Part shown: piece after piece, positions 30,705-38,326 of the stretch | Position numbering within the stretch: position 1 is the stretch's first letter | How the letters are laid out: every line of letters begins with the position of its first letter | Translations under genes and position numbers: made by a program | The notes under the pieces: generated by a model | Databases searched by the model: none | Seen by the model: the letters and a program-made list of their open reading frames with translations, nothing else | Told to the model about the DNA's origin: nothing | DNA from: Candidatus Omnitrophota bacterium | GTDB taxonomy: Bacteria; Omnitrophota; Gorgyraeia; Aquiviventales; Aquiviventaceae | Direction: 5' to 3' | DNA length: 42,153 nt | Assembly (NCBI GenBank): GCA_016180575.1 | Contig: JACPAY010000003.1 | Span: 1-42,153 of the forward strand

Positions 30705-31214
30705 TCAACACGGGTTGGTGGGACCCTGGTCGATCGTGGCATCCGTCACGGCCGCCAGGTCGCCCTGGTTCACCACCACGCAGTGCCGGATCGTGCCCGT
30801 CTCGTCCACGAAGAACGCCCGCGTGCCGGTCCGCAGGGCCGTCTGCGGCGTGCCCGTCATGGTGTACTGCGTGCAGTTCGGCTCGGCACAGCCGCCCACG
30901 GCGGTGTACACGTAGTTGTAGCCCTGGACGGTCTGCGCCGCCGCGAGGTTCAGGTTGAACGAGGGGGGGCCGAAGTCCGGGTTGGCGTTGGTGTACATGT
31001 CGGCCTGCCAGGCGTCCGGGTAGCTGTTCGTCACCGACCGGTACATCTCGAGTGACGAGACGAGCGCCCGCAGGTTGCCGACCGCGGCCGCCTCGTTCGC
31101 CGAGGTCCGTCCGCGCAGGACGTTCGGGATCGCGATCGCCGCCAACAGGGCGATGATGGCGACCACGATCATGATTTCCACGAGCGTGAAGCCTCCTTCG
31201 CGTGAGTGTCTCAT
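30705..31214 (-). CDS. pilA: Type IV pilin (prepilin)
   Basis: MRHSREGG/FTLVEIMIVVAIIALLAAIAIPNVLRGR: prepilin peptidase site, Glu5, hydrophobic helix. Confidence 0.94.
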   Translation of the reverse strand: MRHSREGGFTLVEIMIVVAIIALLAAIAIPNVLRGRTSANEAAAVGNLRALVSSLEMYRSVTNSYPDAWQADMYTNANPDFGPPSFNLNLAAAQTVQGYNYVYTAVGGCAEPNCTQYTMTGTPQTALRTGTRAFFVDETGTIRHCVVVNQGDLAAVTDATIDQGPTNPC

Positions 31215-31315: not shown

Positions 31316-31348
31316 AAAAAAGCCATTGCCGCATGGACAATGGCTCTT
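31316..31348 (-). terminator. Intrinsic terminator in pilA leader
   Basis: Minus GCCATTG-N9-CAATGGC-TTTTTT. Confidence 0.8.
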
Positions 31349-31515
31349 CGTGCTTTCCAGCGGCAACCCAGCCACCCTCGGGACAGACGTAGATGCGCCG
31401 CCCTCGGTCCGCCGGTCCCGGGAAGACCAACGGCCTGACGGCTTTCTCACGCCTCGCCAGTTCCCAAGGGTCTGTGGTTTTCCGACCCCGCCTCACGGCG
31501 AGTGTGGCCTGAACG
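31349..31515 (-). ncRNA. Structured leader RNA upstream of pilA; possible divergent GEMM-like element
   Basis: GGAAAACC...GAGAAAGCC...GGGUGGCUGGGUUGCCGCUGG, many nested inverted repeats, followed by a terminator; identity unproven. Confidence 0.5.
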
Positions 31516-31535: not shown

Positions 31536-31564
31536 ACTATGCCATACAACCCTTAGGGAGTCAA
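31536..31564 (-). promoter_or_regulatory. Sigma70-like promoter for the pilA leader
   Basis: Minus TTGACT-N17-CATAGT (-35 31559-31564, -10 31536-31541). Confidence 0.6.
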
Positions 31565-31655: not shown

Positions 31656-32870
31656 TTAGCGGCTGACCAGGGTGGAGATCTTGAAGATGGGCAGGAAGAG
31701 GGCGACGACGATGCCGCCGATGACCACCCCCAGGATGGCGATGACCAGCGGCTCGATGAGGCTCGTCAGGGCGGTGACGGCGGCGTCCACCTCGTTCTCA
31801 TAGAAGTCGGCGATCTTGGTCAGCATCTTCTCAAGCTCCCCCGTCTTCTCCCCCACGGAGATCATCCGGGTCACCATCGTCGGGAACACCTGGCTCAGGG
31901 CGAGCGGGTTGGCGATGTTCTCCCCTTCCTTGATGCTGGCCCGGGCCGCCAGGACCGCCGCCTCCACCACCTTGTTCCCGGCCGTCTTGGCCACAATCTC
32001 GAGGGAGGTGAGGATGGGCACGCCGGATTTCACCAGCGTGGCCAGGGTGCGGGCGAACCGGGCGATGAAGACCTTCTGCAGCAGCTTGCCGACGACGGGC
32101 AGCCGCAGGGTGAGCCGGTCGCACTGGAACCGGCCGGCCGGCGTGCCGATGTACAGGCGCGCGCCGACGACCAGGGCGAGGACCCCCACCACCTCGAAGG
32201 CGAGGTACTTCCCCATGAACTCGCTCACGCTCAGGAGGAGCTGCGTCGGCGCCGGGAGCTGGCCGCCCAGCGCCGTAAAGATCTCCTTGAACTTCGGCAC
32301 GATGACCACCAGGAGGAAGGTCGTGATCCCCATGGCGAGGACGGTGACGAACGCCGGATAGAACAGGCTGGCGCGCACCTTCCGCTGGAGCACGCTGACC
32401 TTTTCGATGTACGCGGCCACCCGGTCCAGGATCTCGTCGAGGCGGCCGGACGATTCTCCCGCCCGGATCATGTTGATGAAGAAGTCGGAAAACGCCCGCG
32501 GGTGCCGGCCGACGGCCTCGGAGAGGCTGGAGCCGGCCTCGATGTCGCTCCGCACCTTCTTGAGGATCTGCCGGAACGTCCGGTCCTCCATCTGGTCGCC
32601 CAGGACCTCGAGCGCCTGCGCGATCGGGATGCCGCTGTCGACCATCGTCGCCAGCTGGCGGGAAAAGATGACGAGCTGCTCGGACTTGACGCGGGGCTGG
32701 CCGACCTTCAGGACCGCGAAGGCGCCGCCGTGCCCGCGCTCCTCGATCGACAGGACGACGAACTCCCGCCTCCAGAGCTGCTCGATGAGGGTGTTGCGCG
32801 ACTCGGCGTCCAGCGTGCCGCTGTGCGTCTTGCCGAGCTTGTCCTTCACCACGTACCCGAACGTCGGCAT
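31656..32870 (-). CDS. pilC: Type IV pilus inner-membrane platform protein PilC (GspF family)
   Basis: MPTFGYVVKDKLGKTHSGTLDAES...FSRQLATMVDSGIPIAQALEVLGDQ...GVPILTSLEIVAKTAGN. Confidence 0.94.
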   Translation of the reverse strand: MPTFGYVVKDKLGKTHSGTLDAESRNTLIEQLWRREFVVLSIEERGHGGAFAVLKVGQPRVKSEQLVIFSRQLATMVDSGIPIAQALEVLGDQMEDRTFRQILKKVRSDIEAGSSLSEAVGRHPRAFSDFFINMIRAGESSGRLDEILDRVAAYIEKVSVLQRKVRASLFYPAFVTVLAMGITTFLLVVIVPKFKEIFTALGGQLPAPTQLLLSVSEFMGKYLAFEVVGVLALVVGARLYIGTPAGRFQCDRLTLRLPVVGKLLQKVFIARFARTLATLVKSGVPILTSLEIVAKTAGNKVVEAAVLAARASIKEGENIANPLALSQVFPTMVTRMISVGEKTGELEKMLTKIADFYENEVDAAVTALTSLIEPLVIAILGVVIGGIVVALFLPIFKISTLVSR

Positions 32871-32883
32871 CGTCGCGCTACTC

Positions 32884-34587
32884 CTACTCCTCGGACGTCA
32901 CGGCGACCACTTCCTCGAGGGTCGTCAGCCCCAACGCGGCCTTCTGCAGGCCGTCCTCCCGCAACGGGACCATCCCCAGCGCCTTGACGGCGTGCGCCTT
33001 GATCTCCCAGGACTGGGCCCGCGAGACGATCAGCTCCCGGACCCGCTCGTCCACCTCGAAGACCTCGATGATGCCCATGCGGCCCCGGTAGCCCGTCCCG
33101 TGGCACAGCCGGCACCCCTTGGCCTCGAAGAAGGTCGTCCCCTTGGAGGGGCGCACCCCCAGGCGCTCGAGGAGGGCCGGGCTCGGCGAAAACGGCTGCC
33201 GGCACTTGGCGCACAGCTTGCGGACGAGCCGCTGGGCCTCGATGAGACTGACGCTGGAGGCCACGAGGAACGGCTCGACCCCCATGTCGATGAGCCGCGT
33301 CACCGCCGAGGCGGCGTCGTTCGTGTGCAGGGTCGAGAGGACGAGCTGCCCGGTCAGGCTGGCCTTCATGGCGATGTCGGCGGTCTCGAAGTCCCGGATC
33401 TCCCCGATCATCACGATGTCCGGGCTCTGCCGCAGGAGGGCGCGGAGGCCGCTGGCGAACGTCAGCCCCGCCTCCGGGCGGATCTGCACCTGCGTGATCC
33501 CTTCAATCTGATACTCCACCGGGTCCTCGATGGTGATGAGGTTCCGCGTCGGCTGGTTCAGCTGGGTCAGGACGGAATAGAGCGTGGTCGATTTCCCCGA
33601 GCCGGTGGGGCCGGTCACGAGGATCATCCCGTGGGGCCGCTGCACCGCGGCCTTGAACTGCTCGATCGATTGCGGGAGGAACCCCAGGTGATCCAGGCCG
33701 ATCGACAGGTTGGCCTTGTCCAGGAGCCTCAGGACCGCCTTGCTCCCGTGCGTGATGGGCAGGATCGACACCCGGAAGTCCACCTCCCGCTCCTCCAGCC
33801 GCACCTTGAACCGGCCGTCCTGCGGGATGCGCCACTCGGTGATGTCGAGCCCGGACATGATCTTGAGGCGGGTCAGCATCGGGTTCTGCACCGCCTTGGG
33901 GAAGCGGTGGGTTTCGACGAGACGCCCGTCCACCCGGTAGCGCACGCGCAGCGCGTCCGCCAGCGGCTCCACGTGGATGTCGGAGGCGCGGGACCGCATC
34001 GCCTCGATCACCAGGAGGTTGAGGACCTGGACGATCGGCGCGTCGGTGTTCTCCTGCTCGCTGAGCAGCAGGGCGACCGCCGTGTCGATGGTGTCCTCCG
34101 ACCCCGCCTCCCCCTCGCCGCCGGAGGCGGCATCCGGCGCGGCCGCCGGCTCCTGCTGCGCGTAGGCCTGCTCAATGGCCCGCCGGATCTCCACCTCGGA
34201 GGCCAGCACCGGGTCGATGGCGACCTGGGTGAGGGCCTTGAGATCGTCCACGGCCATGATGTTCATCGGATCGCTCATCGCCACGACCAGACGCTCCCCG
34301 AACTTCGCCAGCGCGATCAGGTTGTACTGGCGCGCGAACCGCTCCGGGATGAGCCGGGTCACGGCGGGGTCCATGCGGTACTTCTCCAGGGAGATCATGG
34401 GGAGGCCGAACTCTTTGGACAGCAGCTCGTTGAGCTTCGACTCGGAGACCACCCCCTGGTCGATGAGCAGGCGGGCGAAGCTCTTCCCGTTCCGGGACGC
34501 GTCGGCCCCCAGCTTGGCCAGCTGCTCCGGCTTGACGAGCTGCTGCGCGATGAGCAGCGCAGCGACCCGCTCCCTGAAGCTGCTCAT
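32884..34587 (-). CDS. pilB: PilB/GspE-type secretion ATPase (paralog 2)
   Basis: N-terminal MshEN-like domain; ILVTGPTGSGKSTTLYSVLTQLN; Asp/His boxes; Zn tetracysteine CAKC...CRLCHGTGY. Confidence 0.93.
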   Translation of the reverse strand: MSSFRERVAALLIAQQLVKPEQLAKLGADASRNGKSFARLLIDQGVVSESKLNELLSKEFGLPMISLEKYRMDPAVTRLIPERFARQYNLIALAKFGERLVVAMSDPMNIMAVDDLKALTQVAIDPVLASEVEIRRAIEQAYAQQEPAAAPDAASGGEGEAGSEDTIDTAVALLLSEQENTDAPIVQVLNLLVIEAMRSRASDIHVEPLADALRVRYRVDGRLVETHRFPKAVQNPMLTRLKIMSGLDITEWRIPQDGRFKVRLEEREVDFRVSILPITHGSKAVLRLLDKANLSIGLDHLGFLPQSIEQFKAAVQRPHGMILVTGPTGSGKSTTLYSVLTQLNQPTRNLITIEDPVEYQIEGITQVQIRPEAGLTFASGLRALLRQSPDIVMIGEIRDFETADIAMKASLTGQLVLSTLHTNDAASAVTRLIDMGVEPFLVASSVSLIEAQRLVRKLCAKCRQPFSPSPALLERLGVRPSKGTTFFEAKGCRLCHGTGYRGRMGIIEVFEVDERVRELIVSRAQSWEIKAHAVKALGMVPLREDGLQKAALGLTTLEEVVAVTSEE

Positions 34588-36314
34588 ACGGCCACCACCT
34601 CCCCGATGGTGGTGCGGAACACCTCATCGAGGGTCGTGATGTGCGCCGCCACCTTCGCCAACCCATGTTCCCGCAGCGTCTTCATGCCGCCCTTGCGGGC
34701 CGCGTTCTGCACCTCGCGCTCCGGCGCGCGCTTGAGGATCAGCTCCCGGATGGGGGGGCTCATGACGAGCGTCTCAGCGATGACCTCGCGTCCGGCGTAG
34801 CCCGACTTGAAGCACGCGCGGCAGCCGGCGCCCCGGGCGAGCTCCAGCGGCTCTCCCCCCTTGTCCACCAGCCCAAGCTTCTCGGCCATCCCTTTCGGAG
34901 GGCGGTAGCGCTCCAGGCACTTCGGACAGATCTTGCGGACCAGCCGCTGGCCGAGGACCGCCATGACGCAGGAGTTGATGAGGAAGGGCTCCATGCCCAT
35001 GTTGACGAGGCGAACGACCGAGCCCGCCGCGCTGTTGGTGTGGAGCGTGCTCAGCACGAGATGCCCGGTCAGCGCGGACTTGATCGCCATGTCCGCCGCC
35101 TCGGCGTCGCGGATCTCCCCCACCATGATCACGTCGGGATCCTGGCGCAGGATCGACCGCAGGGCCGCGGCGAACGTCAGCCCGATGTCCGTCTTCACGC
35201 TGACCTGGTTGATCCCCCCCAGGTCGAACTCCACCGGGTCCTCGACCGTCAGGATATTCTTCTCGGGGCTGTCGATCATCTTCAGCAGCGCGTAGAGCGT
35301 CGTGGTCTTGCCCGAGCCGGTCGGGCCGGTCGACAGGAGCATGCCGTGCGGCCGGCGGGCGCAGGCCTTCAGCCGCTCCAGGTCCTCGGGGGAGAACCCG
35401 AGCGTGTCGATGTCGAGCTTGACCTCGCCCTTGTCGAGGATCCGGACGCAGACGTTGCCGCCGAAGCTGGAGGGGAGGACGGACACCCGGAAGTCAATCA
35501 GGCGCTCATCCACGCGGAAGTTGAAATGGCCGTCCTGCGGAAGCCTTCGCTCGGCGATGTCGAGCTCCGACATGATCTTGATGCGGGAGACCACCGCCGG
35601 ATGCAGGTGCTTGGGGGGCGCCGGCCCCTCCTGGAGGATGCCGTCGACCCGGTAGCGGACTCGGACGGTCTTCTCCCGCGGCTCGATGAAGAGGTCCGAG
35701 GCGTGGATCCGGACCGCGCGGGTCAGGATGGCGTCGGTCAGCTTGATGACGGGCGCCTCTTGGGTCTGCCGCAGCAGCTGCTCCGCCTCCGACTCCCCCT
35801 CCAGCTCCTCGGCGCCGGTGATGATCGCCTGGGAGCCGGACTCGGTCTTCCTCACCATCTCGCGCAGCGTCTCCTCGACGCCGGTCCCATAGAAGGTGTC
35901 GATGGTGTCCCGGATGTCCTTGGGCGTGGCCAGGACCGGACTGATCGAGAGGCCGGTCATGGCGGAGAGGGTGTCGAGCGCGAACACGTTCAGCGGGTCG
36001 GCCATCGCGATGGTCAGGGCCTGGCCGGTGCAGGAGACGGGGATGAGCTGGTACTGCAGGGCCAGATCCCGGGGGATCAGCGCCTTCAGGCCGACGTCCA
36101 GCTTCATGCGGGACAGGTTGATCGGCGGGATGCCGATGCCCTGGCTGACGGCCGCCACCAAATCCGCCTCGCTCACGAGGCCGCGCTCCATCAGGAGGGT
36201 CTGGAGGCTGCCCCCCTGGGTCCGCTGCACCGCGAGGACCTCCTCCATCTGCTTCTCTGTGAGGAGGCCGCGGGAGAGCAGCGCGTCAATGATGCGTTTC
36301 TGAAGACCCGCCAT
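34584..36314 (-). CDS. PilB/GspE-type secretion ATPase (paralog 1)
   Basis: MAGLQKRIIDALLSRGLLTEKQMEEVLAVQ...; LSTGPTGSGKTTTLYALLKMID; CPKC...CRACFKSGY; start at 36314 preferred over track start 36395. Confidence 0.93.
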   Translation of the reverse strand: MAGLQKRIIDALLSRGLLTEKQMEEVLAVQRTQGGSLQTLLMERGLVSEADLVAAVSQGIGIPPINLSRMKLDVGLKALIPRDLALQYQLIPVSCTGQALTIAMADPLNVFALDTLSAMTGLSISPVLATPKDIRDTIDTFYGTGVEETLREMVRKTESGSQAIITGAEELEGESEAEQLLRQTQEAPVIKLTDAILTRAVRIHASDLFIEPREKTVRVRYRVDGILQEGPAPPKHLHPAVVSRIKIMSELDIAERRLPQDGHFNFRVDERLIDFRVSVLPSSFGGNVCVRILDKGEVKLDIDTLGFSPEDLERLKACARRPHGMLLSTGPTGSGKTTTLYALLKMIDSPEKNILTVEDPVEFDLGGINQVSVKTDIGLTFAAALRSILRQDPDVIMVGEIRDAEAADMAIKSALTGHLVLSTLHTNSAAGSVVRLVNMGMEPFLINSCVMAVLGQRLVRKICPKCLERYRPPKGMAEKLGLVDKGGEPLELARGAGCRACFKSGYAGREVIAETLVMSPPIRELILKRAPEREVQNAARKGGMKTLREHGLAKVAAHITTLDEVFRTTIGEVVAV

Positions 36315-36780
36315 CGCCCGCCCCGTTGTCCGCCGCCTTCGGCGGCGCATAGTGTTTGGTGATCGCCTTCTCGATCTCGGTCGGCGTGCTGACAAACGTC
36401 TGGACGATGCATTTCGTCAGGAGCTCGACCTCCTCGATCGCCTTGACGTTGGAGGGGTCGGCCATGACCAAGGTCAGGGCGTTCCCGATGCGGTCGATGG
36501 GGATCAGGCAGTACTGCCGGGCCACCGTCTCGGGGATCAGCGACGTCAGCCCGCCGTCGATCTCATAGTTGTCGAGCGGCAGATACGGAAAGCCGTACTG
36601 CGCGGTCAGCGCCAGCGCGATCTCCTCCTCCGTGGTGTAGCCGAGGTGGATGAGCACCTGGCCCAGGAGGCCGCCGTGCGCCTTCTGGTACGCCAGGGCC
36701 TCCTCGAGCTTGGTGCGGGTGATGACCCCGCGCTCGAGGAGCACCTCGCCGATCCGTTTCGTGATGATCCGTTTCGCCAT
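36286..36780 (-). CDS. Standalone MshEN (GspE N-terminal) domain protein, candidate c-di-GMP receptor
   Basis: RIGEVLLERGVITRTKLEEALAYQ and LLGQVLIHLGYTTEEEIALALTAQYG match the tandem 24-residue MshEN motif; no ATPase domain follows. Confidence 0.85.
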   Translation of the reverse strand: MAKRIITKRIGEVLLERGVITRTKLEEALAYQKAHGGLLGQVLIHLGYTTEEEIALALTAQYGFPYLPLDNYEIDGGLTSLIPETVARQYCLIPIDRIGNALTLVMADPSNVKAIEEVELLTKCIVQTFVSTPTEIEKAITKHYAPPKAADNGAGDGGSSETHH

Positions 36781-36784
36781 CAGG

Positions 36785-37861
36785 CTACCGGTTCATGAGC
36801 CGCGTGAGATCGTCCGGGTCGCTGGAGCGCGCCAGCGCATACTCCAGGGTGATGACCCGGTTCGCGTACAGTTCGTAGAGCGACTGGTTCATCGTCTTCA
36901 TGCCCTCTTTCTGCCCCGTCTGGATCACGGAGTAGAGCTGATGGATCTTCTGCTCGCGGATGAGCGAGCGGACCGCGTGGTTCACCACGAGGAACTCCAT
37001 CGCCAGCACCCGGCCGCGGCCGCCCGCCTTGGGAATGAGCTGCTGGGAGATGACGCCGAGGAGCTCCAGGGAGAGCTGGACGCGGACCTGGTTCTGCTGG
37101 CTCGCCGGGAAGACGTCCACGATGCGGTTCACCGTCTGCATCGCGTCGGAGGTGTGGAGCGTGGCCAGGACGAGGTGGCCGGTCTCCGCGACGATCAGCG
37201 CCGTCTCGATGGTCTCGAGGTCGCGCATCTCCCCGATGAGGATGACGTCCGGGTCCTGCCGCAGGACGTGCTTCAGCCCCTGGGCGAACGACTGGGTGTC
37301 GCTGCCCACCTCCCGCTGGTCCACGATGGACCGCTTGCTCGTGTGCGTGTACTCGATGGGGTCCTCGATGGTGACGACGTGGAAGGTCTTGTTCGTGTTC
37401 AGGTAGTCCAGCATGGCGGCGAGCGTCGTGGTCTTGCCGGAGCCGGTGGCGCCGGTGACGAGGACGAGGCCCTGCGGCTTCTCGCAGAGATCCGTCATCA
37501 GCTTGACCGGCAGGCCGAGCTCCGCGAAGTTCATGATCCGGAACGGGAGCATCCGCAGCGCCGCGCCCACGTAGCCCTGCTGCACGAAGTAGTTGGCGCG
37601 GAACCGCGCGAGGCCCTCCACCGAAAAGGCGAAGTCCAGCTCCTTCCAGCGCTCGAAGCGCTCGATCTTCTCCGGCGCGAGCAGGCTGTAGGCGAGCTCC
37701 TTCACCTCCTTGCCGGAGAGCGCGGGGTGGTCCGTGGCGACCAACCGGTCATCCAGGCGCAGGTGGGGAGGGCTGTTCGCGCCGAGGTGGAGGTCGGTCG
37801 CCCCCTGCTCGACGACGAGCCGCAGGAGCTCTTCCATGGTGGGCTTCGCTGACGCGGCCAT
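36785..37861 (-). CDS. pilT: Twitching motility retraction ATPase PilT
   Basis: MEELLRLVVEQGATDLHLGANSPPHLRLDD...VLVTGATGSGKTTTLAAMLDYLN...VILIGEMRDLETIETALIVAETGHLVLATLHT; start at 37861. Confidence 0.96.
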   Translation of the reverse strand: MAASAKPTMEELLRLVVEQGATDLHLGANSPPHLRLDDRLVATDHPALSGKEVKELAYSLLAPEKIERFERWKELDFAFSVEGLARFRANYFVQQGYVGAALRMLPFRIMNFAELGLPVKLMTDLCEKPQGLVLVTGATGSGKTTTLAAMLDYLNTNKTFHVVTIEDPIEYTHTSKRSIVDQREVGSDTQSFAQGLKHVLRQDPDVILIGEMRDLETIETALIVAETGHLVLATLHTSDAMQTVNRIVDVFPASQQNQVRVQLSLELLGVISQQLIPKAGGRGRVLAMEFLVVNHAVRSLIREQKIHQLYSVIQTGQKEGMKTMNQSLYELYANRVITLEYALARSSDPDDLTRLMNR

Positions 37862-38133
37862 CAGGCTCGCCTCCCCCGCATCTTGTGCATCATGGCGTCC
37901 ACGATCCGCTGCTCGAACTGCTCCGCGGTGCTGATCCCCTCGCCGGTCAGGTTGAGCCGCTTCAGCGCATTGACCATGGCGGCGAGGATCTGGGTCCTGG
38001 AGAGCTTCAGCCCTGAGGAGAACTGGGCATCCTTGCCCAGCTGATCGAGGTAGTCCACCTGCTCGCGGTTGAGCGAGGCGATGACGCGATGGGCGTGACG
38101 GTGATTGCCGGCGTTTCGTGGCGATTGTCGCAT
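37861..38133 (-). CDS. Small ribbon-helix-helix-like protein upstream of pilT
   Basis: HRVIASLNREQVDYLDQLGKDAQFSSGLKLSRTQILAAMVNALKRLNL resembles a beta-helix-helix fold; stop overlaps the pilT ATG; SD-like GGAAGG upstream. Confidence 0.65.
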   Translation of the reverse strand: MRQSPRNAGNHRHAHRVIASLNREQVDYLDQLGKDAQFSSGLKLSRTQILAAMVNALKRLNLTGEGISTAEQFEQRIVDAMMHKMRGRRA

Positions 38134-38151: not shown

Positions 38152-38184
38152 AAAAAAACAGACGGCCGGTGAAAAGGCCGTCTG
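38152..38184 (-). terminator. Intrinsic terminator of the riboswitch
   Basis: Minus CAGACGGCC-TTTTCACC-GGCCGTCTG-TTTTTTT. Confidence 0.9.
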
Positions 38185-38189
38185 CTCGT

Positions 38190-38278
38190 TCCCGGTGGCA
38201 GCCCGCCCTTCTGGTGCCTGGCACCAGACGCCTGGCTTTGCGCCCCCACGTCACCGTGGGTTTGCCCTTTTCACGCGG
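38190..38278 (-). promoter_or_regulatory. c-di-GMP-I (GEMM-I) riboswitch aptamer
   Basis: Minus GGGCAAACC-CACG-GUGA-CGUGG-GGGCGCAAAGCC...UCUGGUGCCAGGCACCAGA...GGGCUGCC; GNRA tetraloop; equivalents of Vc2 G20 and A47 retained. Confidence 0.85.
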
Positions 38279-38296
38279 TCAAATTCAATCGCCCAA

Positions 38297-38326
38297 ACTA
38301 TACCACATGGCGCGAACCAGCATCAA
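38297..38326 (-). promoter_or_regulatory. Promoter for the riboswitch-pilT operon
   Basis: Minus TTGATG-N18-TATAGT with TGG extended -10 (-35 38321-38326, -10 38297-38302). Confidence 0.65.

Follow-up and report, generated by a model that had tools for sequence, protein, structure and literature searches.

Class I c-di-GMP riboswitches (c-di-GMP-I or GEMM-I; RF01051) contact their ligand through G20, A47, and C92 in Vc2 numbering (PMC4744006, PMC3764141). In C. difficile, the class I riboswitch Cd1 is an OFF switch of the flgB operon, and Cdi-2-4 is a class II ON switch of pilA1 (PMC6366702). At the protein level, c-di-GMP is received by the MshEN domains of MshE-type ATPases (PMC5013675). 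A literature search for c-di-GMP riboswitches in Omnitrophota found no paper. Here, we analyzed a stretch of 42,153 nucleotides from a Candidatus Omnitrophota bacterium (contig JACPAY010000003.1; hereafter the window), in which one riboswitch stands ahead of the pilus motor genes and a second ahead of a pilin gene. The RNA class of both is known. The novelty lies in the taxon, in the gating of one pilus locus by two riboswitches, in the conservation of the antiterminator, and in the link to a 90-aa protein, and none of these amounts to a new type of RNA device.

The pilus locus and its operon riboswitch

On the minus strand, the locus runs from a rodA-like gene through riboswitch 1, a 90-aa ORF (ORF90, 37861-38133), pilT (358 aa, 36785-37861; TIGR01420, 477.7 bits against a cut-off of 319), a stand-alone MshEN-domain protein (164 aa, 36286-36780; PF05157; NF053729, 63.0 bits against a cut-off of 38), two PilB-type ATPases with MshEN domains (34584-36395, with the true start probably at about 36314, and 32884-34587; both PF00437 and PF05157), and pilC (31656-32870; PF00482). 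Riboswitch 2, pilA, and pilM/N/O follow pilC, and pilQ lies further on. The stand-alone MshEN-domain protein, whose first motif is RIGEVLLERGVITRTKLEEALAYQ, is likely to bind c-di-GMP. The named relatives of the pilT protein are from Omnitrophota MAGs, with 96% identity in isolate nzgw327. The first-pass annotation had placed riboswitch 1 at the head of a pilT-MshEN-pilB-pilB-pilC block, followed by a U-tract terminator and an SD-ATG. The block, the terminator (with a 7-U tract), and the SD-ATG are all present, but the first gene is ORF90 and not pilT. The ATG is the start of ORF90 (38133), and pilT starts at 37861, where its ATG overlaps the ORF90 stop. The same annotation gave no direction of control and missed the second riboswitch ahead of pilA.

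The window was scanned against all 4227 Rfam families. RF01051 matched at 38276-38194 on the minus strand with 53.8 bits (E 6.7e-8); because the gathering score of this family is 35 bits, the match is not due to chance, and the GEMM-I identity proposed earlier is supported. The sequence landmarks on which that proposal was based (GGGCAAACC, the CCCACG-GUGA-CGUGGG stem-loop, GGCGCAAAGCC, a second long stem, and GGGCUGCC) were all read at their places on the minus strand. The alignment with the Rfam model placed G20 at 38266, A47 at 38239, and C92 at 38198, so all three ligand contacts are kept in aptamer 1. In both riboswitches, the P2 loop is GUGA (a GNRA loop) and the interhelical pair C44-G83 is kept, with C44 in place and a G in the P3 bulge. 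By all testable features, riboswitches 1 and 2 are class I c-di-GMP riboswitches and are predicted to bind c-di-GMP. Upstream of aptamer 1, we infer a sigma-70-like promoter with an extended -10 element (TTGATG - 18 nt - TATAGT, 38297-38326, minus strand), which ends 20 nt ahead of the aptamer; the consensus scan found one such site, compared to 0.1 expected in shuffled sequences.

Predicted switching of riboswitch 1

Helix P1 of riboswitch 1 is formed by CCG.GUG and CACCGG (38192-38197), as read from folding and sequence. A second copy of CACCGG is made up of the loop UUUUCACC and the GG of the 3' arm of intrinsic terminator 1 (GCAGACGGCC UUUUCACC GGCCGUCUGU and the U tract, 38152-38185; hairpin of about -19 kcal/mol). 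This terminator begins 11 nt past C93 and has no base in common with the aptamer. The 5' strand of the aptamer, CCGcGUGAAAAGG (38266-38278), comprises the 5' strand of P1 and J1-2 with G19 and G20, and is complementary to CCUUUUCACCGG (38166-38177), which spans the terminator loop. The two segments can pair over 12 bp with one bulge and would form the 5' and 3' halves of an antiterminator. In growing-transcript folding, with pseudoknots and ligand ignored by the free-energy models, the antiterminator fold was 7.4 kcal/mol better than the aptamer fold at 131 nt, when the terminator loop has just emerged (-56.2 versus -48.8 kcal/mol), and the combined aptamer and terminator fold won from about 140 nt. 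The arrangement found, a terminator independent of the aptamer together with an antiterminator that uses aptamer bases, is that of an OFF riboswitch.

The complementarity between the 5' strand and the terminator is conserved. Compared to shuffled terminators, the window and its 12 orthologs in the family (13 members) had a mean z of -2.5 (Fisher p 5e-11), and eight distant homologs from other families had one of -1.7 (Fisher p 6e-5). For these values, the limits of the 5' strands and of the terminators were set by eye, and the orthologs, which share ancestry, are not independent. In an earlier test on the loop region, the mean z was -3.4. Six ON-type riboswitches of the same lineage served as a negative control and remained near 0 (z -0.8 to +1.1), and swapping partners among family members weakened the pairing (permutation p = 0.015). 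Compensating changes were observed in three orthologs: AACaGGGC/GCCCGUU (L050), ACAAGGGC/GCCCUUG (L046), and GAAGAGG/CCUUUUU (L052). The complementarity was weak or non-significant in five family members (L045, L049, L056, L057, and L062), as it was in most of the distant homologs when taken singly. A different antiterminator, between P3 (GGCGUCUG) and the 5' arm of the terminator (CAGACGGCC), was noticed first but then discarded: P3 differs even between the window and its congener, in contrast to the conserved 5'-strand pairing.

The aptamers with their contact residues, the promoter-like sites, the terminators, and the conserved complementarity were all shown computationally, and from them we infer ligand, direction, and phenotype: riboswitch 1 is quite probably a GEMM-I transcriptional OFF switch, and riboswitch 2 would act likewise on pilA. 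At low c-di-GMP, CCGcGUGAAAAGG with its G20 would pair with the terminator as it emerges, engaging its loop and the inner bases of its arm, and RNA polymerase would continue into ORF90-pilT-MshEN-pilB-pilB-pilC. At high c-di-GMP, the ligand would lock G20, P1, and the junction, which would make the 5' strand unavailable, so that the terminator could form and the operon would be cut off. Ligand binding would thereby tip the choice between the antiterminator fold and the aptamer and terminator folds. Since G20 is needed in both structures, ligand binding and antitermination should be mutually exclusive, which points to an OFF switch.

The opposite direction, in which the bound ligand prevents the terminator and riboswitch 1 is an ON switch, is unlikely. 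Such switches do appear to occur in the same genome: in L001, L003, and L006, and by eye in L005 and L009, the 5' arm of the terminator is the aptamer's own 3' strand, as expected of ON switches. Moreover, pilA1 of C. difficile is turned ON by c-di-GMP, via class II (PMC6366702). However, terminator 1 takes no base from the aptamer, and the complementarity conserved here is of the antiterminator kind.

The OFF reading takes c-di-GMP as the ligand. That aptamer 1 instead senses another dinucleotide (3',3'-cGAMP) or represents the variant class c-di-GMP-I-GGC (RF03167), of which Weinberg et al. 2017 is reportedly the source, is less likely still. RF03167 gave the better E-value (6e-12), and orthologs such as L044 and L073 exceeded its gathering score, at 61.9 bits. 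The RNA of the window itself, however, was below it (53.3 versus 59 bits) and carries A at position 47, where the RF03167 consensus, as we read the model, has G. In cGAMP-type GEMM-I variants, the changed base is at position 20, which is A. This position is G in aptamer 1, and G20 and A47 were kept in 71/71 parsed aptamers. Judged by sequence, riboswitches 1 and 2 are neither c-di-GMP-I-GGC (score under gathering, A47 kept) nor of the cGAMP type (G20 kept). A pocket change has been described (PMC9481103).

It is very improbable that aptamer 1 is a decayed or non-functional remnant ahead of a plain constitutive attenuator or terminator: two non-standard pairs in its P3, the absence of the riboswitch in G018, and large insertions in some relatives would agree with decay, but the changes in P3 that separate the window from its congener mostly compensate each other (GGC/GCG, which has one G-G mismatch, versus CAA/UUG), and the aptamer is retained ahead of the same gene across families.

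Several of the related riboswitches show unusual architecture. Four orthologs of riboswitch 1 (L049, L052, L057, and L062) carry two extra hairpins between C44 and G45, beside the ligand pocket; Rfam at E 0.05, run on all of these but L062, returned no match for L049 and L052 and a weak partial match for L057. Hairpin pairs are also inserted in P2 of L053 and L232. The P3 loop of riboswitch 1 contains a palindromic repeat (38227-38211), and palindromic repeats occur in the P3 loops of unrelated riboswitches, with GGTATCAGATACC in L003, L007, L008, L009, and L011 and GGTGCCTGGC..GCCAGGCACC in L004, L012, L030, and L220, as though mobile palindromes could insert into P3 without harm.

Riboswitch 2, ORF90, and related riboswitches

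The second RF01051 match, at 31518-31359 on the minus strand, scored 43.8 bits in the cmscan of the window, above the gathering score. Aptamer 2 has a long P3 extension and lies behind a sigma-70-like promoter with an extended -10 element, predicted at 31536-31564 (TTGACT - 17 nt - CATAGT). Its 3' strand UUGCCGC (31360-31366, with C92 at 31363) is complementary over 7 bp to GCGGCAA (31332-31326) in the loop and 3' arm of intrinsic terminator 2 (31316-31346). Riboswitch 2 would thus use a different antiterminator, formed by the 3' strand of the aptamer, with the same OFF outcome. The z of this pairing was -3.0 in the window; three orthologs gave -1.8, -2.1, and -0.6. Riboswitch 2 appears to be an OFF switch for pilA, although the case is weaker than that for riboswitch 1. 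The congener (L073, 12289-12450) and three further genera (L229, L231, and L232) carry riboswitch 2 in the corresponding position. The gene downstream (30705-31214; 169 aa, GFTLVEIMIVVAIIALLAAIAIPN; PF07963 and TIGR02532) encodes a pilA-like prepilin with GFTLVEIMIVV. Just after pilA and ahead of pilM, at 30660-30610, there is a strong GC-rich hairpin that is likely to be a terminator or attenuator. At 31654-31589, after pilC and before the promoter of riboswitch 2, lies an inverted repeat, CGGGGACAGCCACTAATTTA...TAAATTAGTGGCTGTCCCCG, that resembles a mobile palindromic element.

Aptamer 2 carries a C21-G46 pair, C24, and U43. Aptamers with C21-G46 and C24-Y43 (riboswitch 2, L007, and L011) were considered as a new ligand class. 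Three observations speak against this reading, which was therefore rejected: G20, A47, and C92 are all retained, positions 21/46 (G-C or C-G) and 24/43 (A with A/G, or C with U/C) vary as coupled pairs without exception in 71 aptamers, and the published list of conserved positions does not include them (PMC3764141). The coupled positions are usually drawn as plain consensus.

ORF90, the first gene of the riboswitch 1 transcript, is conserved in the family, with the core HRVIASLNREQVDYLDKIGKDAQFSSG.KLSRTQILAAMVNALKRLNLTGEG, and in other Omnitrophota families, where homologues were found in 21 of the 145 genomes sampled. In all 15 loci examined from these other families, a c-di-GMP-I riboswitch lies upstream of the ORF90 homologue, at a distance of about 310 nt or less in 14 loci and about 500 nt in one. 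This near-constant association points to ORF90 as a new protein family. Searches of Pfam, NCBIfam, and PDB gave no match for ORF90. From its sequence, ORF90 might be a ribbon-helix-helix protein; the AlphaFold model (pLDDT 59) was uninformative. In G008 and G099, a gene for a GGDEF-domain protein lies between the ORF90 homologue and pilT, with the degenerate motif SGNEI in G008. Across L055, L058, L059, and L060, the GGDEF-like domain protein before pilT has degenerate motifs (SGNEI, AGNEI, GGNEI, and PGNEI). In the G018 relative (L051), the promoter and the 90-aa ORF are kept and the riboswitch is absent, which represents a natural deletion; because this relative lost it, riboswitch 1 can be regarded as dispensable.

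The assembly to which the window belongs (1.3 Mb, about 85% complete) contained 13 RF01051 matches at E < 1, of which 12 were above the cut-off. The 13th, riboswitch 2, scored lower in the genome search because of its long insert and passed in the cmscan of the window. Riboswitches of this class were found in all 27 genomes of the family, with up to 25 in one, and at least one was present in 310 of 368 sampled Omnitrophota genomes. Also encoded in the genome are two diguanylate cyclases, whose GGEEF/GGDEF motifs are intact, and two HD-GYP proteins, and c-di-GMP is therefore probably both made and degraded in this host; a search of the genome for EAL phosphodiesterases found none. The genes after the ON-type riboswitches encode proteins with signal-peptide-like N-termini and a response regulator. 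With class I switches of apparently opposite sign in one genome, a high level of c-di-GMP would be expected to switch off pilus motors and pilin and to switch on secreted proteins.

L005 and L001 are tandem c-di-GMP-I riboswitches, both apparently of the ON type, before a gene for a secreted protein (G000:C12:35411-35710). In 11 of 72 parsed aptamers (L002:1501-1650 in the same genome, and L022, L041, L113, L169, L188, L193, L200, L204, L210, and L212), a second copy of the aptamer 3' half (GAUnGCCGGGyUrCCGAA, with C92) was found 25-43 nt downstream. In most of these, the copy is the 5' arm of a terminator, and several precede minor pilin genes. The arrangement looks like a strand-exchange expression platform.

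Comparison with known systems

Put tentatively, and with slightly less than even confidence, the locus may carry an ancestral Omnitrophota module for OFF control by c-di-GMP, made up of a class I riboswitch with a permanent link to the small ORF90 protein family, which would act in pilus or motility control. Here, this module would head the pilus motor operon, and another class I switch, with an antiterminator of its own, would gate the pilin. One signal would then both repress pilus transcription and bind the motor ATPases through their MshEN domains, and other class I switches of the genome would turn secreted proteins ON. With its many class I riboswitches, predicted to answer a single second messenger with opposite signs, this small genome from an uncultured phylum is a case in which such control can be tested.

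Riboswitch 1 resembles the c-di-GMP-I/GEMM-I family (RF01051) in architecture, in G20, A47, and C92, in the GNRA tetraloop and the C44-G83 pair, and in its place ahead of pilus genes. It differs in its GC-rich, extended P3, in the antiterminator between the 5' strand and the terminator loop, and in its Omnitrophota host. With c-di-GMP-I-GGC (RF03167), it shares the overall fold and the score level, but it keeps A47 in place of the consensus G and stays under the gathering score of 59. The MshEN domains of MshE-type ATPases (PMC5013675) have counterparts in the three MshEN domains of the operon, one of which has a near-perfect first 24-residue motif; these are, however, protein-level receptors, outside the RNA switch. 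As with Cd1 and Cdi-2-4 of C. difficile, transcription-terminating c-di-GMP riboswitches are found here on pilus genes, where they stand on motility and pilus genes in C. difficile, and the class I switches of the locus are predicted to be of the OFF type. In contrast to C. difficile, the locus has two class I gates, by which pilus motors and pilin would be switched OFF. The predicted sign for pili is thus opposite, and the predicted logic for type IV pili is the reverse of that in C. difficile.
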